Shown: piece by piece, positions 9,400 to 22,470 of the stretch
Layout of the letters: every line of letters starts with the position of its first letter
Numbering within the stretch: the first letter of the stretch is position 1
NCBI GenBank assembly: GCA_016932575.1
Contig: JAFGCO010000003.1
Coordinates: 1-22,470 of the forward strand
DNA from: a bacterium
Lineage (GTDB): Bacteria; Zhuqueibacterota; QNDG01; JAFGCO01
DNA length: 22,470 nt
Direction: 5' to 3'
Program-made: the position numbers and the translations under genes
The notes under the pieces: model-generated
What the model saw: only the letters and a program-made list of their open reading frames with translations
What the model was told of the DNA's origin: nothing
The model's database searches: none

Positions 9400-10473
9400 A
9401 TGCAGAGTAAAAGCAAACAGTTGTTTTCTCCGGAGTGCCTGACAATCAGTCTTGGAAGCAGATGTCATCTCGATTGTCTTTATTGCTTCTCAAAAAATCA
9501 GGGAAAAGATACACAGAGGTTGTCGGAAGGGGATTTTATCAGAGGCGTTTCAAGAGCCGCTGAACTTGTGGCGAAGAATTGTTCTGAAAAAAATATACCG
9601 TTTTTTCTGGGATTTCAGGGAAGCGGTGAACCCCTCGAGTATTTTAAACTATTGAAACAGGTTTACGGCCAGGTTGAATCCATTGTTGCAAAGAATCATT
9701 TGAATTTGTTTGCTTTTATCACAAGCAACGGCTGTATGGAAGCGGATCAATACCAATGGGTGGCCGAGCGGTTTCAGCGTGTTTGTTTGTCCATTGACGG
9801 GGACGAGCGGCTGCATAATATTCAGAGACCGGGAAAAAATGGTGAAGGCACCTACGGCCGGATCATTAAAACACTTCAGATTCTTCAGAATCAGGGAGTC
9901 CGGCCGGCCGTGCGAATGACCGTAACCCGGCACAATGTACAGGATATGTCCCCGATCATCCGGCATTTTATCGATGATCTTCAGCTTTCCGATATTCAGG
10001 CGGAGCCGGTTTATCAAAATGCATCCCTGGCTGCTGATCCCGTATTATTTGCAGAAAATTTTATACGGGCCCGGAACGATGCTTCGGACAGTGGCGCAGT
10101 GTTGAAGTATTCCGGATACCGCAGCCATGAAAAACATGGCCCCTACTGCAATATGAACCGGAATGTGCTGTATGTGGGACCAGGGGGAACCGCGTCAATT
10201 TGCCTGTTTAAAGATCATGAGAGCAGAGAAAGCCCTTTTGTCATCGGATACTACCATACTGAATCCGACCGGTTTGTTCTTCTGGAAGATAAAATCAATC
10301 GTTTAATTGATCATTCATCAAGGATTTACCGGGATTGCGAATTGTGTGAAATTGTCGATTCCTGCGTCAGGGGATGCCCGGATGTCTGTATCATTAAAGA
10401 AGATTCCCGTTATCCAATAAAAAATACACATCGCTGTCAAATAAACCGATTGTTATATAAAAATGGATCATGA
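9400..10473 (+). CDS. Radical SAM/SPASM maturase (rSAM1)
   Basis: A 357-aa radical SAM enzyme. The [4Fe-4S]-SAM motif is C22-x3-C26-x2-C29 (CHLDCLYC), with a GSGEP variant of the GGEP motif at about 74-78 and a SIDG strand at about 131-134. The C-terminal part is a SPASM domain with auxiliary cluster cysteines C250, C268, C313, C316, C322, C326, C330 and C346 (pattern C-x2-C-x5-C-x3-C-x3-C). SPASM enzymes such as anSME, PqqE and thioether synthases modify protein or peptide side chains. It opens the gene run whose fourth member is PqqD-like, so it is the prime candidate for modifying the WD40 protein tails. A stop codon just upstream limits the start; no strong ribosome site is seen. It overlaps the next gene by 11 bases. 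Confidence 0.9.
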   Translation: MQSKSKQLFSPECLTISLGSRCHLDCLYCFSKNQGKDTQRLSEGDFIRGVSRAAELVAKNCSEKNIPFFLGFQGSGEPLEYFKLLKQVYGQVESIVAKNHLNLFAFITSNGCMEADQYQWVAERFQRVCLSIDGDERLHNIQRPGKNGEGTYGRIIKTLQILQNQGVRPAVRMTVTRHNVQDMSPIIRHFIDDLQLSDIQAEPVYQNASLAADPVLFAENFIRARNDASDSGAVLKYSGYRSHEKHGPYCNMNRNVLYVGPGGTASICLFKDHESRESPFVIGYYHTESDRFVLLEDKINRLIDHSSRIYRDCELCEIVDSCVRGCPDVCIIKEDSRYPIKNTHRCQINRLLYKNGS

Positions 10474-11656
10474 CAGAAAACATTTTCCGGCATTGCTGGC
10501 GGATATTCTTCAGGGGATCGTGCCTATCCGGCCGAATACCGCTGAACTGCATTCCGAATGGCGGCAGTATACAGATACATTGAAAACCGGACTGCCCGGA
10601 ATCGAGATCAAAGATGACGGCGATACAGTATGCCTGGGCGCGCTGTCTCCCGGCTGCCGGTGCTGTAAAAACGGTGAATGGGACTGTCTGTTTATCACAC
10701 CTGCCTGCAATTTACACTGCCGGTTCTGCATCAGTCCTTTTCAGAATCGCCGTGTGCCCGTTTCAGCCTATGGCAAATCGCCTGAAGACCTTATAAGCAG
10801 CTATAAAAAAGCGGGAATCACAGGAGTCAGCTTTTCAGGGGGCGAGCCTTTTCTGGATTTTCCGGCGGTCACCAAATGGCTGAGCGATTTAGAGTCCGAG
10901 TTTCCGGATCATTATTACTGGATATACACAAACGGAACCCGGACGCGCCGGGAACACATTGATACGCTGAGTGAGCTGGGGCTCGACGAAATCCGGTTTA
11001 ATACGGCAGCAACTGGTTATCATGATTCGGCTGTCATGCAACTGATGGCATACGCGGCTCAAAAGCTTCCAAATGTGACTGTCGAGGTCCCTTTGCTTTA
11101 CCATGATTATGAAATACTCCGTACCGCAATACCGGATTACGCCAGAGCCGGGGTTCAATTTCTCAATTTACACGAGCTGATGCGTGAGAGTCATACACCC
11201 TCACATCAGTTGAAGAACGAAAATTTTAAGACTGTTGTTTTTCCGGATGGCCATGTCACCGATGTCTCGATGCACAGCCGTATTATGTTTCAGAATATTG
11301 CACATACAGTCCTGGATTCGAATCTGCCGCTTAATCTTAATTTTTGTTCGACAGTAAACAAACGCCGCCAGATCAGAAAACGCCGCAGCAGTATCATGAA
11401 GCTGAACACAAAGACGTATGAGAAAGTGGTGGATGAAGGCTGTCTGGAATCGGTTTTTGTTTTTCAGGATAAAGATCATTATCAATGGGTGCATCCGGAT
11501 GTCTGGGAGGCTCGGAAATCCCGGTTTGCCGGTTATACAGCATTCAGGCTGAAAAAAACAGCCCCGTTATCGGTCTGGGACAGGGGCCGGTACCTCAGCG
11601 CGGAAAAACTTGAGGATCATCATGTGGTTTCATCTTCGTCTGCTGGAAAAATGTAA
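10463..11656 (+). CDS. COG2108-like radical SAM protein (rSAM2)
   Basis: A 397-aa radical SAM protein. It has C82-x3-C86-x2-C89 (CNLHCRFC), GGEP at about 126-129 and a YTNGT strand. Ahead of the cluster motif is L-G-A-L-S-P-G-C-R-C-C-K-N-G with cysteines at 65, 67, 68 and 75. A 'LSPGC..C..G' segment just before the radical SAM motif is characteristic of the COG2108 group, related to pyruvate formate-lyase activating enzymes and of unknown substrate. No SPASM domain is present; the C-terminus is basic and variable (RRQIRKRRSS). It overlaps both the gene before (11 bases) and the gene after (about 35 bases), which implies one transcript and coupled translation. A role in the same modification pathway is inferred from this arrangement only. 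Confidence 0.85.
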   Translation: MDHDRKHFPALLADILQGIVPIRPNTAELHSEWRQYTDTLKTGLPGIEIKDDGDTVCLGALSPGCRCCKNGEWDCLFITPACNLHCRFCISPFQNRRVPVSAYGKSPEDLISSYKKAGITGVSFSGGEPFLDFPAVTKWLSDLESEFPDHYYWIYTNGTRTRREHIDTLSELGLDEIRFNTAATGYHDSAVMQLMAYAAQKLPNVTVEVPLLYHDYEILRTAIPDYARAGVQFLNLHELMRESHTPSHQLKNENFKTVVFPDGHVTDVSMHSRIMFQNIAHTVLDSNLPLNLNFCSTVNKRRQIRKRRSSIMKLNTKTYEKVVDEGCLESVFVFQDKDHYQWVHPDVWEARKSRFAGYTAFRLKKTAPLSVWDRGRYLSAEKLEDHHVVSSSSAGKM

Positions 11657-12482
11657 TTTAAAATGTGTGTCCTGCTACGCTCAGAATCATGACCGTTCTT
11701 TAATCATGAGTTTTGGTATGTTCAGGGATGTGCTTGAGGTCATTCAACAGGTCAGGGCTGCAGACTCTCAGAAATCCGTGATCTATTTAAGCGGGGGCGA
11801 GCCCCTGATGCATCCGCAGTTTTTCGAATTTTTGGACTGTTGCTTTTCCCGCTTTGACCGGGTATCCATTCTGACCAACGGCATTCTGGTGCCGAAATAT
11901 GTTCAGAAGTTTACACCCTACCGTGAAAAGCTCTGTGTTCAGATCTCTCTGGACGGGGATGAAACCATCAATGATCAGATCCGCGGACGCGGTGTTTACG
12001 CCAAAGTGGTGAAAGCCCTGAATCTGCTGAAGGAGCATGAAATCCGCCACTGGATCAGTTATACAGTGTCGCAGGCAAACAAACAGTGTTACCCGGATAT
12101 TCTGCAAGTGGCAAAAGAAACGCAGTCCTTTTTCAATAATGTGACGCCCTATATTGGGGATCCAGATCAAATGCTGGATTATTTTGAGTGGAAAGAATTC
12201 AAATACAATTTTGAAAAACACAGCCGCGAATTGGGACTGGACATGGCTCACGGGCCCAATTGCTGCGGATTTCGTTATCAGTGCGGCGCGTTTTACAGCG
12301 GTGTCACAATTAATCCGGACGGCTCGCTGGCCGGCTGCGCCCGCATCAATAATGTCAAGGGCCAGTACACGGACATGCAGAAATATCTGTTGAAACAGCC
12401 CCTGTCCATAACCGAAACCTGCATGAAGCAGAAATGGGGCAGTCTGCGTCCGTTTGATGTGATCAGCTCACTGGAAACATAA
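11622..12482 (+). CDS. Radical SAM protein with short SPASM-like tail (rSAM3)
   Basis: A 286-aa radical SAM protein. The ATG at 11622 has GAGG (11612-11615) six bases upstream, better than the TTG at 11610. The cluster motif sits very near the N-terminus: C11-x3-C15-x2-C18 (CNLKCVSCY). GGEP is at 58-61, and Q-I-S-L-D-G at about 107-112. The C-terminus has C214, C215, C221, an N-P-D-G-S-L-A-G-C239 element typical of SPASM/Twitch domains, and C267; it is shorter than a full SPASM domain, so probably one auxiliary cluster. A peptide- or protein-modifying role is likely by family. It starts inside the previous gene's end and the PqqD-like gene follows after about 20 bases. Confidence 0.85.
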   Translation: MWFHLRLLEKCNLKCVSCYAQNHDRSLIMSFGMFRDVLEVIQQVRAADSQKSVIYLSGGEPLMHPQFFEFLDCCFSRFDRVSILTNGILVPKYVQKFTPYREKLCVQISLDGDETINDQIRGRGVYAKVVKALNLLKEHEIRHWISYTVSQANKQCYPDILQVAKETQSFFNNVTPYIGDPDQMLDYFEWKEFKYNFEKHSRELGLDMAHGPNCCGFRYQCGAFYSGVTINPDGSLAGCARINNVKGQYTDMQKYLLKQPLSITETCMKQKWGSLRPFDVISSLET

Positions 12483-12505
12483 GCCGATTGGAAGACAGAA
12501 GACCC

Positions 12506-12946
12506 ATGACACAGCGCCGGGAATTTTTTAAACGATTTTTTGCCGAGCTTTCTTATCTGAAAGACGAAGCCAGGGGCCGCCGGCATTTCAAACTCTCTGA
12601 TCTGTGGAAACTGGATGAGAACAAATTCAGACAGCTCAAATTCAGAGTGCGGGAAGGCGTGGCGGTTCAGTACAGCGAACAGGATATCCGCGCGAAAAAA
12701 AAGGATGATGATCCGGTTTTTTTATGCGACACAGGAACCGGACAGGAGTCAATATTCCGGCTTATGCAGCAGCGTTTGAGTGTGGGAGAAATCACAGAAA
12801 GAATAGCCGTAGACAGGGATCAGAAACAGGAAAACGCGTTTCATGAGGTCCGCTCATTTTTATTGTTCCTGATTAAGGAGTCAGTTTGCATCCCTGCCAA
12901 TGACATCTGCTATGAACCGGACAGCCAATCGGAGCCAGATGAATGA
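12506..12946 (+). CDS. PqqD-like RiPP recognition element protein
   Basis: A 146-aa protein. Residues about 70-130 fit the PqqD/RRE winged-helix pattern: a small beta hairpin (PVFLCDTGTGQ), then ESIFRLMQQRLSVGEITERI, then an acidic linker and a last helix HEVRSFLLFLIKESVCI. PqqD-type proteins bind the leader of a substrate peptide and present it to a radical SAM/SPASM enzyme. The N-terminus is unusual: MTQRREFFKRFF carries a twin-arginine motif like the WD40 substrates but no hydrophobic stretch follows, so it should stay in the cytoplasm. ATG 12506 is chosen over TTG 12488, with GGAAG upstream. Its stop overlaps the first WD40 gene as ATGA, which ties the two together in translation. Assignment rests on pattern, not on a profile score. 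Confidence 0.65.
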   Translation: MTQRREFFKRFFAELSYLKDEARGRRHFKLSDLWKLDENKFRQLKFRVREGVAVQYSEQDIRAKKKDDDPVFLCDTGTGQESIFRLMQQRLSVGEITERIAVDRDQKQENAFHEVRSFLLFLIKESVCIPANDICYEPDSQSEPDE

Positions 12947-14210
12947 AAAAGAAAAAACAAGAAAAACCCGAAATCTTTGCGGTTCAGAATAATAACACTG
13001 AGAAGGGCGTTTCCAGGAGGGACTTTATCGGGTTTGGAACCGTAATCGCTGCAGGTGCCACAGCCGGGATGATGGGTTCCTGCTCGGATCCCAATTCATC
13101 AAAATGGTCGAATACAACCATCAGTCAGAACGAATGCAGACGATATATTCAGCAGTCGCATTTTCATTATGTGAAATCAGTCGCCATCAGCGCGGATAAC
13201 ACCCTGCTGCTTTCCGGCTGTTATCTTTCGACGGAGTGCAATCCGAAAATATGGCGTTTGTCCGATGGCGCTCTCCAAAAAACATTATCCGGTTTTCCGG
13301 ATGAAATCTATTCCGTGGCCATCAGTCCCGACTGCCATCTGATGGCCATGGGCTGCGGTGATCACAGTATCAAACTGTGTCAGTTTCCGCAGAGGAACCT
13401 GCTGAAAAGCCTCGAAGGACACGATTCAACGGTCAATTCAGTTACATTCAGCCCGGACGGATCGCGCTTCTGGCCTCGGCAGGCAGCGACAGGACGGTCA
13501 GGCTCTGGGGCCTGCCTGACGGCAATCTGATGCAGACACTGGAAGGTCATACGTCTTATGTAGAAGCTGTTGCATTTCATCCGCAGGGAACATTGCTTGC
13601 ATCCGCGGGAAGGGATGACACGGTCAGGTTCTGGAATCTTGCGGACGGCAGCCTGGTTAAAACCCTGGAAGACTACAAATCAAAGGTTTTATCCATTGCA
13701 TTCAGCTCGGATGGGGCCTTGCTGGCCACCGGGAGTTACAAGACCATCAGATTATACCGGATGTCTGATCAAAAGTTGATTCAATCGTGGGACGGTCATG
13801 AAAGCTATGTGAACGCGCTGGCATTCGGTCCGAACGGATCGCTTCTGGCTTCAGTAAGTGAAGATGCCACTGTTAAACTCTGGCAGTTGCCGGAATGCGA
13901 TCTGTTAAAAACGATGAGTGAGCATGTGAATGATGTCACCTGCGCAGTTATCAGTCCGGACGGAGCAGTACTGGTCACTGGGGGGTTCGATGCGACCATA
14001 AAGAGATGGGAGCTTCCGTCAGAGGAAATCATCGATACGCTTGCTGATCCGGCATGTGAAGTTGAAGCATTATGCGAAAACGATCCTTTCTACGGGAATT
14101 ATACCGGGTGTTCCTGCGATGCAGTCACGATCTGCAAGTGTGATACAGTCTGCACTTGCGACAATGTGTGTAATTCTCACAGCAGCAGCGGTTACTGGTA
14201 TCCGAATTAA
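12943..14210 (+). pseudogene. WD1: Tat-exported WD40 lipoprotein with Cys-rich tail, frameshifted
   Basis: The 5' part is open 12943-13530 and the 3' part is open to 14210; they join at 13464/13467 if the extra CG at 13465-13466 (within TCGCGCTT) is ignored. The repaired product is about 421 aa, the same length as WD3 and WD4. It has the extended N-terminus with EKPEIFAVQ, the Tat motif SRRDFIGFG, a hydrophobic stretch and a lipobox MGSC. Seven WD40 blades follow (the join restores S-P-D-G-S-L-L-A-S in blade 3). The tail reads CSCDAVTICKCDTV, CTCDNVC and ends SSGYWYPN, lacking the Cys before GYWYPN. It could be a sequencing error, a recent mutation, or a truncated product that loses the tail. 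No slippery site suggests programmed frameshifting. Confidence 0.8.
14046..14207 (+). other. WD1 Cys-rich tail
   Basis: This 54-residue segment is the C-terminal region after blade 7: an acidic entry (DPACEVEALCEN), then hexad-like units C-x-C-D-x-V (CSCDAVTI, CKCDTV, CTCDNV), then C-N-S-H and the end motif S-S-S-G-Y-W-Y-P-N. Eight cysteines are arranged as C-x-C pairs with Asp directly after each second Cys. It is the proposed site of radical SAM modification. Confidence 0.6.
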
Positions 14211-14320
14211 ATGTGACAGGTTTTACATAATTTTAGGGATCAATGATGACCGGATTTTCTGGTCGAGCTATTGATAATTAATATCCATTTTATCGTTTTT
14301 CTGCAAGGGAAGGAGAGATG

Positions 14321-16024
14321 ATGAAACAGTTAAAGCAAGACAAGGAAAAGCCCGAAATCTTTGCGATTCAGAAAAGTAAAGACACGCACGGCATCAACCG
14401 CAGACAGTTCGTGGGCCTCATGGGGACGGGTGCGGCACTTACAGGTTTGTGCGGCAGGGTATGGGCCAAGGGAGATGTCAAAGGCCAGTCTGTCGGCAGG
14501 CTTCCCGTCAATCTTTGCAAACAGGTAAAAGCGCATTCTGATGATGTTAATTCCGTTGCTATCAGTCCTGATGGTAAGCTGCTGGTGTCCGGGAGTGTTG
14601 ATCACTCAATCAGACTGTGGCGCCTGCCCGGGGGCAAGCTTCTGAATTCGCTGAAGGGACATTTGCATTCTGTCAAATCCGTTGCTATCAGCCATGATGG
14701 CAAACTGCTGGCCTCAGGAAGTTCGGATAAAACCATTAAACTATGGCAACTGCCGGGGGGCAAGCTTTTAAATACATTGAAAGGGCACTCTGATTTGATC
14801 TGTTCCGTTGCTATCAGCCCTGACAGCACTTTGCTGGCATCCGGAAGCAAGGATCACACCGTCAAGTTATGGCGTTTGCCGGAAGGCAAGCTTGTGAACA
14901 CACTGGAAGGGCATCCGAAATCTGTGGAATCGGTTGCCATCAGCCCGGACGGTACGCTTCTGGCGTCCGGGAGCCGGGATCAAACGATCAAACTGTGGCG
15001 CCTGCCCGGGGGCGAGCTTATGGACACACTGAAGGGGCATTCCGATGTTGTCAGGTCTGTTGCCTTCAGCCCGGATGGTGAGATACTTGCGTCAGGGAGT
15101 GTGGACGGCACGATTAAACTATGGAGTCTCGAAAATGTGAAAACGAAAATGAATAAAGAAAAAGAACTGTCAGACAATCCGAATGCCAAGGGATTATTGG
15201 CCATTCCGTTCATTTATGGAGCAGCAAAAGAGATACGTCATTCCGGAGCTGAAGAAGAAAGGCTGAATCAGCAAAACAGTCACACAAAGAATCATATCAA
15301 GACAGCAGCATCATTGGCGGCAGGTGTCACGATTTTGTCTGTTTTGGGATGCAGTAACGATTGTATCAAGACATTGAAAAGCCGTTCTTTTACTGTTGAA
15401 TCCATTGCTTTTAGTCCTGACGGCACACTACTGGCATCCGTAAGCTGGAACACAATCAAACTATGGCACCTGCCGGATGGCGGGCTGCTGAACACGCTGA
15501 ACGGGCATTCCGGAAATATCAATTCCGTGACTGTCAGTTCTGATGGCGCGCTGCTGGCATCCGGAGGTGATGATGATACCATCAAACTGTGGCGCCTGCC
15601 TGAGGGCGAGCTCGCGGGGTGTTTGTTTGATCCTTCTTTTATTGAACCGAAAAATGTCCGGGAAGTGCGGCAGAAAGATACCGAAATTCTGACCCTGCCC
15701 TGCGGCAGCCCGCTGCCTGCCGGAGCCACCTGTATTTGTGACTGCGTTGAGAGTTCACGCACCTATCCGGGCACCCGGACCGTTTGCACGTGTAATACGA
15801 TCATGGTGTCCTCAGGCGCTTCACTTTCCGGCAGTGTCGTCTGCGTGTGTGATACGGTTTCTGTGGGTACAAAAAATATCAGTGCCAGCAATGTCAAGCG
15901 AACCAAAAAGACAAGCGGTTCGATATGCACCTGCAATACGATCTGTACCTGCAACACCGTAAGCACATCGAGCTGCAGCAGCTGCTCCAGCTGTTCCAGC
16001 TGCGGGTACTGGTATCCGAATTAA
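14321..16024 (+). CDS. WD2: Tat-exported WD40 protein with inserted segment and long Cys-rich tail
   Basis: About 567 aa; the second ATG of an ATGATG pair is used because AAGGAG (14310-14315) is too close to the first. The N-terminus has EKPEIFAIQK, Tat motif NRRQFVGL, a hydrophobic run and a probable signal peptidase I site (VWA-K) rather than a lipobox. Five WD40 blades (about 64-272) are followed by a non-WD insert of about 85 residues, then two more blades, giving seven in total. The insert contains HIKTAASLAAGVTIL...LGCSND, which looks like a decayed copy of the family signal/lipobox region. The tail is much longer than in paralogs, with scattered CICDCV, CTCNTI, CVCDTV, CTCNTICTCNTV units, several with Asn in place of Asp, then SSC repeats and CGYWYPN. 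The metzincin-like lipoprotein gene starts 13 bases downstream. Confidence 0.85.
   Translation: MKQLKQDKEKPEIFAIQKSKDTHGINRRQFVGLMGTGAALTGLCGRVWAKGDVKGQSVGRLPVNLCKQVKAHSDDVNSVAISPDGKLLVSGSVDHSIRLWRLPGGKLLNSLKGHLHSVKSVAISHDGKLLASGSSDKTIKLWQLPGGKLLNTLKGHSDLICSVAISPDSTLLASGSKDHTVKLWRLPEGKLVNTLEGHPKSVESVAISPDGTLLASGSRDQTIKLWRLPGGELMDTLKGHSDVVRSVAFSPDGEILASGSVDGTIKLWSLENVKTKMNKEKELSDNPNAKGLLAIPFIYGAAKEIRHSGAEEERLNQQNSHTKNHIKTAASLAAGVTILSVLGCSNDCIKTLKSRSFTVESIAFSPDGTLLASVSWNTIKLWHLPDGGLLNTLNGHSGNINSVTVSSDGALLASGGDDDTIKLWRLPEGELAGCLFDPSFIEPKNVREVRQKDTEILTLPCGSPLPAGATCICDCVESSRTYPGTRTVCTCNTIMVSSGASLSGSVVCVCDTVSVGTKNISASNVKRTKKTSGSICTCNTICTCNTVSTSSCSSCSSCSSCGYWYPN
15731..16021 (+). other. WD2 expanded Cys-rich tail
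   Basis: About 97 residues. Module C-x-C-[DN]-x-[VI] appears five times or so: CICDCV, CTCNTIMV, CVCDTVSV, CTCNTI, CTCNTV. The first three are separated by Ser/Thr/Gly-rich linkers, unlike the compact tails of the paralogs. It finishes with C-S-S-C-S-S-C-S-S-C-G-Y-W-Y-P-N. The spread-out units indicate that the module C-x-C-[DN]-x-V-x-V, not the whole tail, is the conserved unit. Confidence 0.6.
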
Positions 16025-16037
16025 AGGAACGTAAAAA

Positions 16038-17699
16038 GTGAAACGATTTTGTCAATTTATCATCCTTACGATTGCTCTGACCACGGCATTTTGCAGCAGA
16101 CGGCCGGTGATGTCATCCCGGGCCTTTGGGAACAGGCTCAATCTGGCGTATGTGGTGCTTTATGAGCATGAGGCCCAGCTCGGTCCTGAAAAACAGAAAA
16201 TCAGCGACAGGCTCGAGCTGTTTTCTGAAATCATACAAAGGGAAAGCCGGGGACATCTGAATATCACATGCAAGCCCGTGTATATTCCTGTCGGTTCCCT
16301 GAGCTCAAAACATCTGAATTACCAGGATCATTCTTTTTTTGAGTGGATGGACAGGCTGCTGAAAACAAACGCCCTCACCGGTGATTATGAGATTGTGACA
16401 TTTACGCCTGTAATCCGAATGCCCTGGGCGCATGACTGCCACAGCATCGGGTACTATTATAAAAACCGGGTTTGTTTTTCACTCGAATATCATACTTATA
16501 CACAGCAAGAAAATGTCAAGGCTGTGAGTCTGATGATTCATAAAATGCTGCATGGATTCGGATATAATCATCAGAATATTAATATGCCGGCCCTGAAACT
16601 GCTCAACTGGCAGCTGGGTCTGCCTGTGAACACCGGACTGGAATTTATCCTCAGAGAAAAGCACGGAACCGATGCGTTCTTTTTCAGCCCGCATCTGCTC
16701 AGCGTACTGAACACATCACGGATTTCAGACCGGGACAGCCTGTGCCTCGACTGCGGGGGGCTGTTTTCACAGAGCGATCCCTGGCGGCAGGGCATTACGG
16801 CGGATGCGTACGGTCCCTATTGTTATGATGCGGATCATGACGGTATCCTGGATCATGCGGATGATTATTTTTTAAGCAGTCCTGTACAGGGAACGGACAC
16901 GGATGAAGACGGCATTACGGATTCTCTGGACCGGGTTCCCTGGAACCAGATTCGGGTTTCCGGCAATATCAAATCCGGTAAAATCCATCTGATCGCAAAG
17001 CAGGACCGGTCCACGATCGCGTTTGAAAGTGAACAGGCCGATATTATTGCGCTCAGGAAAATATATTTGCAGCGGGTGCCTGTCCAGGTCAAGCCCGATC
17101 ATTTTCCGGGCTGTTTTCCGCAAAATGCGGCAGAAACCATTCAGAGTAATCGCATTGTTCTGGAAAAGAATGTAAAAAAGCCGCCGGTGATCCGGATTGA
17201 AGTGGTTTACAGGTATATGGGCAGAATATTTTACCGGCCCTTTTATTTTTTCTTTACAGGCACACCGGTACTGCAGATCATCAATGAACGGGAATGGATC
17301 TACTTCTTACGGTTCGGCGCGGATATCCCCGCGGGAATTGATTTTTATCAAGTCGATACCTATGATGCGAACCATGACGGTTTTCTCGATCCGACCGATT
17401 ATCAATATTTTTCCATCCCCGAATCTTATGACTGGGACGGGGACGGTTTTCCGGATTTTGAAGATACGCTGCCTACAGTTTACGGAAGCTTTCAGAATCA
17501 GTGGGTAAGCGGAGTGAAAGATTCGGACGGTGATGGTCTGGCGGATCCGGGCTGTCTGGATTTTTCGTCACCGGCCGGCCTGATTCCTCATCAGCAATAT
17601 TTTGGTGAACTAAATCGTGTTCTTGGATTGAATCCGGACTATGACCTTTCACCCTACCTGGCCGGGAGCAAGGCAGCTAGGGGAATGCCGGATGATTAA
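16038..17699 (+). CDS. Lipoprotein with degenerate metzincin motif and Ca2+-binding DxDxDG repeats
   Basis: A 553-aa protein starting at GTG (AAAGGAAC just upstream). Residues 1-19 form a lipoprotein signal (TTAFC, Cys19). At 168-178 the sequence HKMLHGFGYNH matches the metzincin zinc signature H-E-x-x-H-x-x-G-x-x-H in spacing and in all three His and the Gly, but the catalytic Glu is Lys169. Five Asp-rich loops resemble dockerin / thrombospondin type 3 calcium-binding repeats: DADHDGILDHAD (264), DTDEDGITD (287), DANHDGFLDPTD (443), DWDGDGFPDFED (465) and DSDGDGLAD (495). The middle region (about 306-420) looks beta-rich and is not recognised. Its place 13 bases after WD2 suggests it belongs to the WD40 system, as a binding protein, a chaperone or a protease that has lost activity. 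Function is not known. Confidence 0.75.
   Translation: MKRFCQFIILTIALTTAFCSRRPVMSSRAFGNRLNLAYVVLYEHEAQLGPEKQKISDRLELFSEIIQRESRGHLNITCKPVYIPVGSLSSKHLNYQDHSFFEWMDRLLKTNALTGDYEIVTFTPVIRMPWAHDCHSIGYYYKNRVCFSLEYHTYTQQENVKAVSLMIHKMLHGFGYNHQNINMPALKLLNWQLGLPVNTGLEFILREKHGTDAFFFSPHLLSVLNTSRISDRDSLCLDCGGLFSQSDPWRQGITADAYGPYCYDADHDGILDHADDYFLSSPVQGTDTDEDGITDSLDRVPWNQIRVSGNIKSGKIHLIAKQDRSTIAFESEQADIIALRKIYLQRVPVQVKPDHFPGCFPQNAAETIQSNRIVLEKNVKKPPVIRIEVVYRYMGRIFYRPFYFFFTGTPVLQIINEREWIYFLRFGADIPAGIDFYQVDTYDANHDGFLDPTDYQYFSIPESYDWDGDGFPDFEDTLPTVYGSFQNQWVSGVKDSDGDGLADPGCLDFSSPAGLIPHQQYFGELNRVLGLNPDYDLSPYLAGSKAARGMPDD
16539..16571 (+). other. Zinc-binding motif with Glu-to-Lys change
   Basis: Codons CAT AAA ATG CTG CAT GGA TTC GGA TAT AAT CAT encode H-K-M-L-H-G-F-G-Y-N-H. 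A single A-to-G change at the second codon (AAA to GAA) would restore the full metzincin H-E-x-x-H-G-x-G-x-x-H motif. Confidence 0.65.
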
Positions 17700-17821
17700 A
17701 ATGGATTCTTACTGATAAAAAGAGGAGAAAAATAGAATTTGTTGCTCAGCCTCTCAGCGGATCATGCATACAGGCGATAAATGCGGTTCCCGTAATCGGA
17801 AAAAACAGAATAATGAAATAA

Positions 17822-19174
17822 ATGATAAAAAAATCAACTGAATCCCAAAATTTCGGTACACAATTTTACACCTTTCTGAATAGTACACCCCGTGCGTTTC
17901 AAGAGAAAATTGCAGGCAGTTATAACGCAATAAAAGGAGTTTATCCCATCTGCTCCCATGCCATGCCGCAGCCGCTATGGAAAAAGCGGGGCTATAACGA
18001 TGATGGAGATCAGGTGTGGGAAAAGATATGCAGGCTATTCAGACAAAACACACCTCAACCTGTTTCAGTTTATGTGCATGTTCCGTTCTGTCAGCAGAAA
18101 TGCGGATTTTGCGACTGTCTGTCGCTGCCGATCAAAGACAGCTTGACCGCCGACCGTTTTGTTTCTGCTCTTCAGATGGAAATTAAAGCCTGGGGTCAAT
18201 TGCCCGGAATCAAAGAATGCCCGGTGACCGTGCTTTATTTCGGCGGGGGAACGCCAAACAGTCTTCCGGATGCTCTTTTTGAACAGGTTCTACGCATGTT
18301 GAAGAAGACATTTCAAATTCACGAGGACACGCAAATCTCAGTGGAATGCAATGCGCATCTTTTGACACCGGAACGTCTGCGGATGTTGAAGACGCTCGGT
18401 GTGAACAGAATCAGCATCGGTGTACAGACCCTGCAGGAGCCGCTGAGATTCAGGCTGGGCCGGCATTCAAGCGCGAAAGAAGTCCTTACGGCGATTCAGC
18501 GATGCAAAGGATCCGGATTCATTACATGCGCCGATGTGATCTATGGCCTGCCCGAACAAAACATGAACGTCTTCTTGGATACGCTGCAATCTTTAATTGA
18601 TGCCGGTATTGACGGATTGTCTCTGTACCGTTTTAATTTGCGTCAGCAGAATCAGGAGTTCATCAAAAAGACATTCCCCCGGTTTCATATAAGTGAACTT
18701 AAGAATTATGTTTATTTTCAGGCCGGCCATTGTCTTTTAAATCAGGCTGGATATCAAAAAAATCATTTCATTCATTTTGTGCGGAGCGATAATAATTTGT
18801 ATTACCGCCATGTATTACGGAGTGAAGATCTGATCGCTCTGGGGCCCACGGCAGATGGTGTCATTGGTTTCTACCGATACCGTCATCCTCATTTAAAGGG
18901 CTATTTGCTGAAGGATAAGAACAACCGTCCAAAATTTGAGGGGGGAACGGATGAATCGCAAACCATGAAAACCCGACCATTAACTGCTGCCCTGATGTGC
19001 GGTGAAATCGTTGAAGAAAAGATGCGGTCTGCAGGCCTCGGACCGCTTTTGTCGAAATGGCAGTCATGTGACATTCTTGAACCGTCAGGCTCGGGTCGCT
19101 GCCGGCTGACAGCGAACGGCTCCTGGCTCATTGATCCGATCATTGATGAGGTGAAAAGAGCGTTGGACGGATGA
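17822..19174 (+). CDS. HemN/HutW-like radical SAM protein (rSAM4)
   Basis: A 450-aa member of the coproporphyrinogen III dehydrogenase-like radical SAM family. The motif V-Y-V-H-V-P-F-C90-Q-Q-K-C94-G-F-C97-D-C99 gives C-x3-C-x2-C-x-C, with the HemN-like fourth Cys. YFGGGTPNSLP (139-149), R-I-S-I-G-V-Q-T-L and D-V-I-Y-G-L-P-E-Q are all family landmarks. HemW proteins are about 380 aa and HemN about 455; the roughly 80-residue N-terminal extension before the motif and G-R-H-S-S pattern recall HutW/ChuW anaerobic haem-degrading methyltransferase-like enzymes. True substrate is uncertain. It lies between WD2/metzincin and WD3, 122 bases after the former, and might be a passenger or provide a porphyrin-related step. 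The start is the first ATG in frame; no good ribosome site is seen. Confidence 0.8.
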   Translation: MIKKSTESQNFGTQFYTFLNSTPRAFQEKIAGSYNAIKGVYPICSHAMPQPLWKKRGYNDDGDQVWEKICRLFRQNTPQPVSVYVHVPFCQQKCGFCDCLSLPIKDSLTADRFVSALQMEIKAWGQLPGIKECPVTVLYFGGGTPNSLPDALFEQVLRMLKKTFQIHEDTQISVECNAHLLTPERLRMLKTLGVNRISIGVQTLQEPLRFRLGRHSSAKEVLTAIQRCKGSGFITCADVIYGLPEQNMNVFLDTLQSLIDAGIDGLSLYRFNLRQQNQEFIKKTFPRFHISELKNYVYFQAGHCLLNQAGYQKNHFIHFVRSDNNLYYRHVLRSEDLIALGPTADGVIGFYRYRHPHLKGYLLKDKNNRPKFEGGTDESQTMKTRPLTAALMCGEIVEEKMRSAGLGPLLSKWQSCDILEPSGSGRCRLTANGSWLIDPIIDEVKRALDG

Positions 19175-19215
19175 ATTGTTTTTATGTTGAAGTTTTTTTA
19201 TTTTATGATCAGCGA

Positions 19216-19502
19216 AAACCAGAACCTCATGTTGTGGTATGATTGAGAGTTAACCTGGTTGAAGCATTGTTAAATGGATATTAATATAGAATCCCACTTT
19301 CTTTTCAAAAAGAAAGTGGCAAAGAAAACGCCTGGCTACCGAAAAATCTCCTAAAATCCGATTCCGCTCACGGAAGGACTGAAACTCCCCCGTGAGATAG
19401 TAAAGCTTATCTCACGGGGTCAAACATCAGTCCTTCTTAACGCTTGCTCCATCCGGATTTTCATACGGAGATTTTTCGAATGCCAGGTAGCCCATCCCTG
19501 CC
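19216..19502. repeat. Dispersed structured repeat, copy B
   Basis: Second copy of the element at 7111-7404, same orientation. Parts: leader with GTGGTATGATTGAGAGTTA; inverted repeat CCACTTTCTTTT (19294-19305) / AAAAGAAAGTGG (19308-19319); nested hairpin with outer arms from CCTGGC (19331) to GCCAGG (19487); inner CGGAAGGACTG / CAGTCCTTC; core CCCCGTGAGATA / TATCTCACGGGG. Some arm differences are compensated: the loop side of the outer stem differs between copies while the core is identical. It lies directly upstream of the WD3-WD5 array. Confidence 0.8.
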
Positions 19503-19530
19503 AAGAAGAAAAAATGATAAGCTGGAGAAG

Positions 19531-19605
19531 TGATGTTTAAAACATCGCACCTTTTAGGGCGATGATTACAAGCCACCGCCTCTGGCGGTGGTAGTTAACT
19601 TTATT
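19531..19605 (+). mobile_element. Possible IS200/IS605-type end remnant (hairpin CCACCGCC-TCT-GGCGGTGG)
   Basis: The perfect eight-pair hairpin CCACCGCC/GGCGGTGG (19573-19580, 19584-19591) with a three-base loop is preceded by GGGCGATGATTACAAG and followed by TAGTTAAC. This layout resembles the right end of IS200/IS605-family elements, where a subterminal hairpin is recognised by the transposase. No tnpA or tnpB is present in the window, so at most a remnant or a non-autonomous piece remains. Resemblance is from memory and needs a database search. It could instead be a transcription attenuator before WD3. Confidence 0.35.
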
Positions 19606-19653
19606 GAAATTTGCAAAAGACCTTTTCATGGATTGTCATACATAGGTGATATG

Positions 19654-20895
19654 ATGAAAAAGAGAGAGAAACCTCAAATTTATAACATTCAGAAAAATCC
19701 GGACAACGATCATGTGAACCGGCGTGAGTTTGTTAAAATCAGCTCGGCGATTGCTGCGGGTTCTGTGGCCGGGGCCGTCAGCTCCTGTTCTGATCCAAAT
19801 TCGTCTCAAGAAGACAAAGAGACTGAGTGCAGGCGAACGATACAAACCTCACATGCCAATTCTGTTGACTCTCTCGGTTTCAGTCCGGACGGCACGATGC
19901 TGGCGTCAGGAAGTTATCAGGATACGATCAAGCTGTGGCGCTTGTCCGATGGCGAGCTGATAAAGGAGCTGGAAGAGCATCCCGATACAGTAAATACCCT
20001 TTGCTTCAGCCCGGGCGGTACGATGTTGGCCTCCGGGAGCTCTTATACCATCAAATTATGGCAACTGCCTGATGGCAATCTGCAAAAAATGCTTTCGGGT
20101 CATTCAGATTATGTGAAATCTGTCGCTATCAGTCCTGACGGCACCCTGCTGGCCTCTGGAAGCTGGGATCAGACGGTTAAACTGTGGCGCCTGCCCGACG
20201 GTGAGCTTTTGAATACACTTCGAGGACATACCAGAAATGTCAACGCTGTTACCATCAGCCCGGATGGTACATTACTGGCTTCCGGCAGTTACGATGATAC
20301 CGTCAAACTGTGGCGCTTGCCAGGCGGAGAGTTGCTCAAAACACTGACAGGTCATTCTGACTGGATATTTTCTGTTGCATTCAGTCCTGACAGTACCATG
20401 CTGGCTTCCGGAAGCCGGGATCAGACCATCAGGCTCTGGCAGATTCCTGAAGGTGAGCCACTGAAAACGCTTCAAGATCATTCTGACAGGGTGAATTCTA
20501 TTGCAATCAGCCCCGACAGCACGCGGCTGGTCTCCGGGAGCAGTGATGAGAGTATTAAATTGTGGCGCCTGCCTGGTGGTGAACTGCTGAAAACGCTTCA
20601 GGGACATACCGGCAGCGTCAGAACCGTCGCTATCAGCCCGGATGGCACACGGCTGGCCTCCGGGAGTTATGATAAAACCATCTTCCTTTGGGATATGTCA
20701 ACGGGAAATTTTTCAAAGGTATTTACAGATCCTGGCTGTGAAGTTGAAATCGACTGTGATGCTTATTCCGATTATCCTGAAAGCTGCTGTTCCTGTGATA
20801 CAGTAACAGTCTGTACATGCGACAGGGTCTGCAGTTGTGATACAATCTGCACTTCGGACAGTTCCTCGAGCTGCGGGTACTGGTATCCGAATTAA
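19654..20895 (+). CDS. WD3: Tat-exported WD40 lipoprotein with Cys-rich tail
   Basis: About 413 aa, intact. The ATGATG pair at 19651/19654 follows AGGTGAT; the second ATG aligns with the KKKEKPQI start of WD4 and WD5. Order: REKPQIYNIQKNP leader motif, Tat motif NRREFVKI, hydrophobic SAIAAGSVAGAVS, lipobox SSC. Seven WD40 blades follow, most 42 residues (126 bp), with the repeated core SPDG-x-LLASGS-x-D-x-T-KLWRLP-G-ELL-TL-GH. The propeller is thus complete. The tail contains CSCDTVTV, CTCDRV, CSCDTI, CTSD and ends SSCGYWYPN. The protein is probably exported folded and tethered to a membrane; WD40 propellers bind peptides or proteins. No enzymatic domain is present. Separated from WD4 by 83 bases. 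Confidence 0.88.
   Translation: MKKREKPQIYNIQKNPDNDHVNRREFVKISSAIAAGSVAGAVSSCSDPNSSQEDKETECRRTIQTSHANSVDSLGFSPDGTMLASGSYQDTIKLWRLSDGELIKELEEHPDTVNTLCFSPGGTMLASGSSYTIKLWQLPDGNLQKMLSGHSDYVKSVAISPDGTLLASGSWDQTVKLWRLPDGELLNTLRGHTRNVNAVTISPDGTLLASGSYDDTVKLWRLPGGELLKTLTGHSDWIFSVAFSPDSTMLASGSRDQTIRLWQIPEGEPLKTLQDHSDRVNSIAISPDSTRLVSGSSDESIKLWRLPGGELLKTLQGHTGSVRTVAISPDGTRLASGSYDKTIFLWDMSTGNFSKVFTDPGCEVEIDCDAYSDYPESCCSCDTVTVCTCDRVCSCDTICTSDSSSSCGYWYPN
20728..20892 (+). other. WD3 Cys-rich tail
   Basis: A 55-residue tail: acidic entry D-P-G-C-E-V-E-I-D-C-D, then CCSCDTVTV, CTCDRV, CSCDTI, CTSD, then S-S-S-S-C-G-Y-W-Y-P-N. Three consecutive C-x-C-D-x-[VI] units, each with Asp after the second Cys and a branched residue two positions later, define a six-residue period. 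Confidence 0.6.
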
Positions 20896-20935
20896 ATTCC
20901 AATCAAATTTATTTTGTTTTTTTACCCTGGAATTT
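20894..20935 (+). terminator. Hairpin with T-rich loop after WD3
   Basis: AAATTCCA (20894-20901) pairs with TGGAATTT (20928-20935) around a T-rich loop, overlapping the WD3 stop codon. It may attenuate transcription between WD3 and WD4. The corresponding place after WD4 keeps the T-rich stretch and GGAATTT but not the left arm, so its role is doubtful. Confidence 0.3.
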
Positions 20936-20978
20936 GTATTCTAAATACAAGGCTCAGTCAATCTCTGGAGATTATTTT

Positions 20979-22238
20979 ATGAAAAAGAAAGAGAAACCTC
21001 AGATTTACAGTATTCAAAAGAATCCCGACGACGATCATATAAACCGGCGTGAGTTTGTTAAAATTGGTTCGGCGATTGCCGCGGGATCCGTGGCTGGGGC
21101 TGTTAGTTTGTGTTCCTGTACGTCTTCGTCTAAAAAGAATCAAAAGTATGGGTGCAAGCGAACAATACAATACTCACATTCTGATGAGGTCAATTCGGTT
21201 GCAATAAGCCCCGATGGTATGATACTGGCATCCGGGAGTGATGATAACACTATCAAACTATGGCAAATTTCCGATGGTAAACTGCTGAAAACACTGAAAG
21301 GCCATTTATATAGTGTCCATGCTGTTGCTATCAGCCCGGACGGCACATTACTGGTATCCGGGAGCAGTGATGATACGATCAAATTGTGGTGCTTTCCTAG
21401 CGGCGAATTGCTGAAAACACTCAGAGGACATAAATATAATGTTTACAGCGTTGCCATCAGTCCAGATGGTAAGTTACTGGCTTCCGGCAGCAGTGATGAT
21501 ACAATAAAGCTTTGGCGCCTGCCAGATGGTGAGTTGTTGAAAACGCTGGAAGGGCATTCCGGTAATGTTAACTCTGTTGATATCAGCCCTGATGGTACGA
21601 TGCTGGTATCCGGGAGCAATGATGACATGATAAAACTTTGGCGTCTACCCGATGGCGACCTGGTGAAAACAATCAGAGGCCATTTGAGTGATGTCAACTC
21701 TGTTGTCTTCAGTCCTGATAGTACCATGATTGCTTCCGGGAGTTATGATAAAACCATCAAACTATGGCGTCTTGCCGGAGGCGAGCTGATGAATACACTT
21801 GTGGGCCATTCTAATTCTGTCTATTCAATAAAATTCAGCCCTGACGGCAAGATGCTTGCTTCGGGGAGTTACGATCACACTGTCAAACTGTGGCGTCTGC
21901 CAGATGGCGAGTTGATGAAAACGCTTAAGGGGCATTCTGCTTGTATTGAATCAATCGTATTCAGTCTTGACAACATGACGTTGGCTTCCGGTAGTGATGA
22001 TAAAACTATAATCATTTGGAATATTGCGGCAGGAGCTGATATCAGAGGATTGGCTGACCCTGGCTGTGAGGTTGAAGCAGATTGTGATGATTCCGATTTT
22101 CCTGTTAACAGTTGTTCATGTGATACTGTAAGTGTCTGTACTTGTGATAAAGTCTGCACATGTGATAAGGTTTGTACCTCCGACAGTTCCTCCAGTTGTT
22201 CCAGCTGTTCCAGCTGCGGGTACTGGTATCCGAATTAA
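20979..22238 (+). CDS. WD4: Tat-exported WD40 lipoprotein with Cys-rich tail
   Basis: 419 aa, intact. ATG 20979 has TGGAG (20966-20970) eight bases upstream and matches the WD5 start; the in-frame ATG at 20934 lies in the duplicated spacer and is rejected. Leader KPQIYSIQKNP, Tat motif NRREFVKI, hydrophobic SAIAAGSVAGAVS, then LCSC (Cys for lipidation likely). Seven WD40 blades of about 42 residues each, with variation concentrated right after GH (GHLYSV, GHKYNV, GHSGNV, GHLSDV, GHSNSV, GHSACI) and at the x-D-x-T turn. The tail reads CSCDTVSV, CTCDKV, CTCDKV, CTSD and ends in SSCSSCSSCGYWYPN. It is followed after 86 bases by WD5. Likely product of tandem duplication with WD3 and WD5. Confidence 0.88.
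   Translation: MKKKEKPQIYSIQKNPDDDHINRREFVKIGSAIAAGSVAGAVSLCSCTSSSKKNQKYGCKRTIQYSHSDEVNSVAISPDGMILASGSDDNTIKLWQISDGKLLKTLKGHLYSVHAVAISPDGTLLVSGSSDDTIKLWCFPSGELLKTLRGHKYNVYSVAISPDGKLLASGSSDDTIKLWRLPDGELLKTLEGHSGNVNSVDISPDGTMLVSGSNDDMIKLWRLPDGDLVKTIRGHLSDVNSVVFSPDSTMIASGSYDKTIKLWRLAGGELMNTLVGHSNSVYSIKFSPDGKMLASGSYDHTVKLWRLPDGELMKTLKGHSACIESIVFSLDNMTLASGSDDKTIIIWNIAAGADIRGLADPGCEVEADCDDSDFPVNSCSCDTVSVCTCDKVCTCDKVCTSDSSSSCSSCSSCGYWYPN
22056..22235 (+). other. WD4 Cys-rich tail
   Basis: A 60-residue tail: D-P-G-C-E-V-E-A-D-C-D entry, then CSCDTVSV, CTCDKV, CTCDKV, CTSD, a Ser run, and C-S-S-C-S-S-C-G-Y-W-Y-P-N. Compared with WD3 it has two extra S-S-C units before the end motif, as in WD2, so the S-S-C count varies between paralogs. 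Confidence 0.6.
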
Positions 22239-22324
22239 AACCCGTGAGATTTGAATTTGTCTTGGTTTTTTCCCGGAATTTTTATAATGAATAGAACACT
22301 CAGGCAATTCGGAGAAATTATTTT

Positions 22325-22470
22325 ATGAAAAAGAAAGAGAAGCCTCAGATTTTCAGTATTCAAAAGAATCCGGAAGGTGATCATGTAAACCGGCGAGAGT
22401 TTGTCAAAATCAGCTCAGCGATTGCCGCGGGATCCGTGGCCGGGGCTGTCAGCTCCTGTTCTGATCCGTC
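22325..22470 (+). CDS. WD5: N-terminus of a further Tat/WD40 paralog (partial)
   Basis: The gene runs off the window end. GGAG at 22311-22314 precedes ATG 22325. The visible 48 residues read KKKEKPQIFSIQKNP, Tat motif NRREFVKI, S-S-A-I-A-A-G-S-V-A-G-A-V-S and lipobox SSCSDPS, almost identical to WD3. It shows that the array continues to the right. Blades and tail cannot be seen. Confidence 0.85.
   Translation, partial: MKKKEKPQIFSIQKNPEGDHVNRREFVKISSAIAAGSVAGAVSSCSDP

Follow-up and report, generated by a model that had tools for sequence, protein, structure and literature searches.

A candidate RiPP-like locus in which radical SAM genes accompany Tat-targeted WD40 proteins with cysteine-hexad tails

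Background

Known radical S-adenosylmethionine (SAM) peptide maturases act mostly on short peptides, and cases in which the substrate is a protein are few. Here we examine a bacterial locus (phylum Zhuqueibacterota) in which four radical SAM genes (rSAM1 to rSAM4) and a gene for a PqqD-like protein stand among five paralogs (WD1 to WD5) encoding WD40 propeller proteins with a common leader, a twin-arginine translocation (Tat) signal and, where complete, a tail of cysteine-rich six-residue units (hexads, CxC[DN]x[VI]) closed by GYWYPN. The locus spans positions 9400-22470 of a 22,470-nt stretch (the window), which is one whole contig (JAFGCO010000003.1) of a 4.41-Mb draft assembly of 72 contigs (GCA_016932575.1). 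We consider it moderately probable that these genes form a maturation system resembling those of ribosomally synthesized and post-translationally modified peptides (RiPPs), with whole exported proteins as substrates and leader-guided, PapB-like cross-linking of their tails before Tat export.

Among described systems, PapA/PapB is the closest on the enzyme side. There the substrate, PapA, is a short peptide carrying CX3D motifs, and a single enzyme, PapB, modifies it. PapB links Cys to the β carbon of Asp and tolerates Cys-Xn-Asp spacings with n from 0 to 6 (PMC9413430). The present locus resembles this pair in that the SPASM enzyme PapB (NF047865) is the nearest family for rSAM1 and for most of the phage enzymes described below, and in a cysteine-rich, presumably leader-dependent substrate with nearby Asp. 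It differs in its CxC[DN] hexads, which are borne by Tat-exported propellers of full protein size, in a separate RiPP recognition element (RRE), in its four radical SAM genes and in scores that lie far below the family cut-off. For a substrate of protein size, the nearest precedent is the QhpD/QhpC pair of quinohemoprotein amine dehydrogenase, in which another radical SAM/SPASM enzyme (QhpD, TIGR03906) puts Cys-Asp/Glu thioethers into a protein subunit bound for the periplasm; QhpC, however, is a small subunit of an enzyme, has a quinone cofactor and lacks a hexad tail, an RRE protein and a WD40 carrier. PqqD/PqqE and other pairs of a discrete RRE and a radical SAM enzyme share with the locus a stand-alone RRE beside a SPASM enzyme, with fold matches to PqqD and TbiB1, but the RRE here has an extra conserved N-terminus (RRxFF) and, judging by the genes, the product is no small excised cofactor or peptide.

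A phage parallel is offered by the Campylobacter phage CP220 group, in which a radical SAM gene (gp136) and a cysteine-rich gene with CxC[DN] repeats (gp140) lie a few genes apart, although these are phage genes near tail and baseplate genes. The CP220 paper counted 11 radical SAM proteins, termed them highly unusual and suggested metabolic roles (PMC2853527). An earlier note, made from the window's sequence without database searches, knew of no described system with the combination of genes found here, and our literature searches likewise found none described.

Results

All genes from position 9400 onward lie on the forward strand, in the order rSAM1 (9400-10473), rSAM2 (10463-11656), rSAM3 (11622-12482), the PqqD-like gene (12506-12946), WD1 (12943-14210), WD2 (14318-16024), p553 (16038-17699), rSAM4 (17822-19174), WD3 (19654-20895, in a frame open from 19588), WD4 (20979-22238) and the start of WD5 (22325-22470). 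As in RiPP loci, enzyme genes (rSAM1-3) and an RRE gene precede five paralogs with a common leader and a repeated cysteine core; the locus has no peptidase or transporter gene of RiPP type, and the WD40 proteins, at about 410-570 aa, are not short released peptides. The gene calls and coordinates of the earlier note for 9400-22470 hold, but its inventory omitted p553 and rSAM4, both of them module genes. It had also described the enzyme and PqqD-like genes as overlapping one another; the stop of the PqqD-like gene does overlap the WD1 start (ATGA, 12943), whereas about 23 nt separate it from rSAM3.

The WD40 paralogs share a segment of roughly KP[EQ]I[FY]xIQK (KPQIYNIQKN in WD3, KPQIYSIQKN in WD4), followed about ten residues later by RRxF. 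A twin-arginine motif, [NS]RR[EDQ]F, with a hydrophobic stretch is present in all paralogs and in their relatives in two other genomes (G034 and G059), and WD1 exceeds the cut-off of TIGR01409 (TAT_signal_seq). WD3 and WD4 each have seven WD40 repeats followed by a cysteine tail (20722-20895 and 22050-22238). All four complete paralogs end in a hexad tail with GYWYPN, as had been claimed, except that the tail of WD2 is degenerate and interrupted; WD5 is represented by its leader and Tat signal, and its tail is not seen because the contig ends within the gene.

A DNA pattern for two hexads plus a further Cys is found three times in the window, whereas shuffled versions of it give an expectation of 0.00, and chance origin of the hexads was rejected on this basis. 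GYWYPN followed by a stop occurs four times in the whole assembly, every time in this contig, and a search of 81 other genomes of the phylum that allowed up to one mismatch found no instance. A tail profile found matches in this genome and in G034 only among 82 genomes of the phylum. A pattern of three consecutive hexads proved too strict to be informative in the phylum, missing even the window itself, and among 395 genomes of another phylum it found repeats only outside any open frame (at least 60 aa) carrying the motif.

The tail is more conserved than the propeller that carries it. Across paralogs and genera, identity is 61-78% in the tail and 52-58% in the propeller, and comparisons between paralogs give a dN of 0.11-0.12 for the tail and of 0.31-0.39 for the propeller, dS exceeding 1 for each part. 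Because its dN is low although dS exceeds 1, the tail is not merely recently copied DNA; judged by these substitution estimates, purifying selection acts more strongly on it than on the propeller. A variable head with a constant tail would be what one expects of binding proteins that share a part for attachment.

Two paralogs are irregular. In WD1 a frameshift near 13460 divides the gene into frames at 12943-13530 and 13377-14210, the tail frame remaining open and the tail intact (14040-14210); the break (13377-13530) may be an assembly error, a pseudogene or phase variation. WD2 is longer owing to a large internal insertion (15200-15400) with another hydrophobic stretch that ends in Cys, AASLAAGVTILSVLGC, which would fit recombination between two paralogs; its last hexads lie at 15890-16021 and it ends in CGYWYPN. 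Directly before GYWYPN, SSC repeats encoded by tccagctg-like units (15960-16024 and 22170-22238) differ in number among paralogs, possibly by slippage.

The product of 12506-12946 has no family match of its own in family model searches, PqqD models included, but its homologue in another genome (G046, locus L022) matches the PqqD model TIGR03859 (4.4e-5, below cut-off). An AlphaFold2 model built from three sequences has a mean pLDDT of 77, with a core above 90, and the top Foldseek hits in the PDB are TbiB1 with its leader peptide, lasso B1, ThcOx, PbtF and PqqD, all of them RREs. Foldseek probabilities are 0.99-1.0 and TM-scores to the target reach 0.83 (for small stand-alone RREs), though E-values are only 0.007-0.07. 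Because the modelled fold matches RREs, the best of them leader-binding, and the G046 relative matches PqqD below cut-off, we take the protein to be an RRE.

None of the four radical SAM proteins passes any equivalog cut-off, so relationships are given as nearest families. rSAM1 has the radical SAM motif CHLDCLYC and a full SPASM set in 7-Cys spacing (C250, G263-x4-C268, C313-x2-C316-x5-C322-x3-C326, C346). In NCBIfam its closest family is PapB (3.5e-25; 88.9 bits, cut-off 340), QhpD (TIGR03906) is also among its matches (5e-16), and its best relative of solved structure is 5wgg. PapB is likewise the best NCBIfam match for the Bacteroidales counterpart of rSAM1 and for five of six phage radical SAM proteins tested, and for none of four control radical SAM proteins of the phylum. 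rSAM3 (CNLKCVSC, start placed at the conserved MWFHxRLLE) has a partial C-terminal Cys set and matches ACGX/NirJ-type models. rSAM2 (CNLHCRFC), formerly labelled COG2108-like, has an HxsC/MoaA-like core and lacks SPASM. Two solitary rSAM2 homologues (34-35% identity; L016 9828-11291 and L017 2864-4198, reverse strand) lie away from RiPP-like genes, so the rSAM2 family would have other roles as well.

rSAM4 is a class C enzyme of the fold family of ChuW/HutW, HemW and NocN, with HemN 1olt and NocN 9p2u as relatives of solved structure. It remains below the cut-off of the HutW model TIGR04107 (E 1.5e-57; 195 bits against 400) and, unlike ChuW/HutW, is accompanied by secreted p553 and RiPP-type genes rather than by heme uptake genes.

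Parts of the locus recur elsewhere, leader and tail in a second genus (G034) and the leader in a third (G059). In G059 (JALOPY010000479) the order rSAM1-rSAM2-rSAM3-RRE is kept at 51-69% identity (51% for rSAM1, 54% for rSAM2), and directly after the RRE gene begins a Tat protein with the same leader, PEIFAIHKSKDQSGISRRDF, at which point the contig ends. In G034, three tandem WD40 proteins with leader and tail end in GTYWYPN, GTYWFPN and GTYWYPN; after them comes an N-extended radical SAM protein of SPASM type, of which the first 150 aa are present. That genome has 33 PF04055 matches, and no rSAM1-4 homologue was found on the contigs fetched from it. WD40 matches in G083 and G059 lack both Tat leader and tail.

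Two Bacteroidales genomes (L028, L029) have the order rSAM2-rSAM1-rSAM3-p553-rSAM4, with rSAM1 at 27-28% identity, rSAM3 at 65-69% (a range that includes G059) and rSAM4, in L029, at 46%. Because both genomes keep p553 and rSAM4 in order with rSAM1-3, we assign the two genes to the module. As there are no tailed WD40 proteins there, the module would have another substrate in Bacteroidales, and the tailed proteins would be a lineage-specific substrate set.

This raises the possibility that the true substrate of rSAM1-4 is p553, or a small unannotated peptide, and that the WD40 proteins are later arrivals using at most one of the enzymes. p553 is conserved across two phyla (57-61% identity in L029 and L028, between rSAM3 and rSAM4), is the sole non-enzyme in every complete rSAM2-1-3-rSAM4 module, WD40-free ones included, and has conserved Cys. 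Yet it lacks CxC[DN] repeats and its N-terminus is of Sec type, in both the present genome and G059 the common leader and the RRE gene go with the WD40 genes, and the Bacteroidales modules lack that RRE gene beside p553, so we judge this explanation quite unlikely. p553 is predicted to be secreted, with Ca-binding-type DxDxDG repeats and a metzincin-like HxxxHGFGYNH, but the catalytic Glu of HExxHxxGxxH is replaced by Lys in the window and in L029 (HKMxHGFGYNH). Its structure model has a pLDDT of 37, and a sequence search of the PDB gave no match.

A second multi-enzyme cluster, with a SPASM radical SAM gene, a gene for a protein of 86-91 aa (PqqD-like by position), another radical SAM gene and a U32-like part (fused in L022), is present in L029 (7492-11076, reverse strand) and in L022 (307-5662). 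It includes TPR-type T9SS proteins in L029 and in L022 it begins with an RRE protein of the RRxFF kind.

We also scanned viral contigs with hexad DNA patterns, leaving radical SAM information unused. Most raw matches were off-frame low-complexity DNA, and after filtering 23 loci with in-frame CxC[DN] tails remained. A radical SAM gene lies in the fetched stretch of 13 of these 23 (abutting or overlapping in 11) versus 17 of 258 other fetched loci (Fisher p 9e-9), a figure inflated by related phages. When related loci are merged by hand, 7 of 15 have a radical SAM gene (p 7e-5). The radical SAM profile behind these counts was partly trained on three of the loci.

The viral hexad carriers are unrelated phage proteins of differing kinds. 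Those beside radical SAM genes include small proteins heading radical SAM arrays (L120 7198-7812; L132 980-1555), a Mu-like phage protein encoded behind a gene for a tail fibre (L113 5335-5997, reverse strand) and further tail or array proteins (L160 2310-3146 and L205 5882-6424, both reverse strand; L189 2480-4897). In L160, L175 and L190 the hexads directly precede a Peptidase_S74 chaperone domain, whose self-cleavage, a known trait of that family, would put them at the mature C-terminus. Such cleavage would also suit a tail that acts as a C-terminal sorting or attachment signal (YW[YF]PN) read outside the cytoplasm and unrelated to radical chemistry, as would the invariant motif at the extreme C-terminus of the WD40 proteins. 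We think this improbable, the least credible of the explanations weighed here: the tail has no hydrophobic or basic segment of the kind in known sortase-like signals, and sorting leaves the hexads, the RRE and the radical SAM neighbours unexplained, although it is compatible with modification. PEP-CTERM/sortase-like sorting was rejected as the sole explanation.

Relatives of the L160 radical SAM protein, about 30% identical to it, occur in 15 Campylobacter phage records; in CP220 the relative is gp136. A few genes upstream, gp140 contains 18 CxC[DN] motifs, many of them in a CTCDCNY array of 21-bp repeats, and both genes occur in the same 15 records (gp140/gp136 region: L372 4161-5765 and 7971-9140; NC_027997 160932-162536 and 164742-165911), near tail and baseplate genes. 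Related-locus scans with two phage radical SAM proteins returned only the queries themselves. Separately, two long phage open reading frames in L150 (3860-5470 and 8168-9394, reverse strand) are full of C[ST]CN[SAG]RT repeats, with about 56 Cys each; the radical SAM match there is weak and distant.

Discussion

Support for a RiPP-like system comes from gene overlap and order, the predicted RRE fold, the joint conservation of leader and tail and the viral association of CxC[DN] tails with radical SAM genes. Judged by its gene content, the locus works like a RiPP system with no short released peptide, and by the models used it belongs to none of the PapB, PqqD and HutW families. In the scheme we propose, a WD40 protein would be made with the conserved segment (KP[EQ]I[FY]xIQK, then RRxF) ahead of its Tat signal, and the RRE protein would bind that segment and present the protein to the radical SAM enzymes. 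A SPASM enzyme of the PapB/SCIFF kind, most probably rSAM1 and perhaps assisted by rSAM2 and rSAM3, would join the cysteines of CxC[DN]xV to the adjacent Asp or Asn and turn the tail into a rigid thioether-stapled stem, and the HutW-like rSAM4 may contribute a further step. The folded, modified protein would leave through Tat, a route that fits since maturation would take place in the cytoplasm, and would probably be lipid-anchored or surface-bound, the propeller serving as a variable binding head and the tail as a constant structural or attachment module.

As to the bond itself, the residue after CxC is Asp or Asn in 41 of 44 cases in the WD40 tails and gp140, proteins not selected for it, and in 122 of 135 across all 16 proteins, while the middle residue varies. 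Because Asp or Asn follows CxC, PapB is the best match and PapB joins Cys-Xn-Asp, Cys-to-Asp/Asn thioethers are the most economical guess, though we give this exact bond somewhat less than even weight; cyclophane-type cross-linking of the terminal YWYPN aromatics is an alternative.

Several observations weigh against the scheme. All PapB matches fall far short of the family cut-off, Asn follows CxC as often as Asp does and we know of no precedent for a Cys-Asn thioether in PapB. The earlier note suggested checking whether the tails accompany rSAM1-3 and the RRE gene; they do so in the present genome, but the Bacteroidales modules are tail-free and the G034 tails have no detectable rSAM2 or RRE homologue, on a contig of 3.5 kb whose sole visible radical SAM gene is truncated. 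Ten of the 23 viral hexad loci have no radical SAM gene in the fetched stretch, several of these stretches being short, and starting from the enzyme, no CxC[DN] neighbour was found in Achromobacter phage 2-1 or in five unannotated gut contigs. Tails occurring commonly without any radical SAM gene were not seen.

The tail-free modules and the viral tails lacking radical SAM neighbours would also be expected if the tail were an unmodified metal-binding or disulfide module, a metallothionein-like stem or spike tip, with the enzymes acting elsewhere and their vicinity incidental; CxC repeats are classical soft-metal ligands. Plain metal binding, however, needs no Asp or Asn after CxC, where one of them stands in about 90% of cases, and the radical SAM association recurs in unrelated phages and two bacterial genera, so this explanation seems to us unlikely, if less so than the other two.

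The parallels between the window and the phages suggest a wider reading, to which we give slightly less than even weight: CxC[DN]-repeat tails may be one general class of protein ends that radical SAM enzymes modify, having arisen or spread in very different exported or assembled proteins. They would form a stapled stem at the mature C-terminus and would explain why such phages have so many radical SAM genes. Its proposed members are the Tat-exported bacterial WD40 proteins, the S74-type and fibre-like proteins of large phages, the Mu-like phage protein and gp140 of Campylobacter phages.

If the proposal is correct, the logic of leader, RRE and radical SAM enzyme would operate on whole folded Tat-exported proteins, which would widen the RiPP idea to surface proteins and would offer a means of stapling the ends of proteins. 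For the radical SAM clusters of large phages, Campylobacter group II among them, a puzzle already noted in 2010 (PMC2853527), the phage parallel would supply a testable function.

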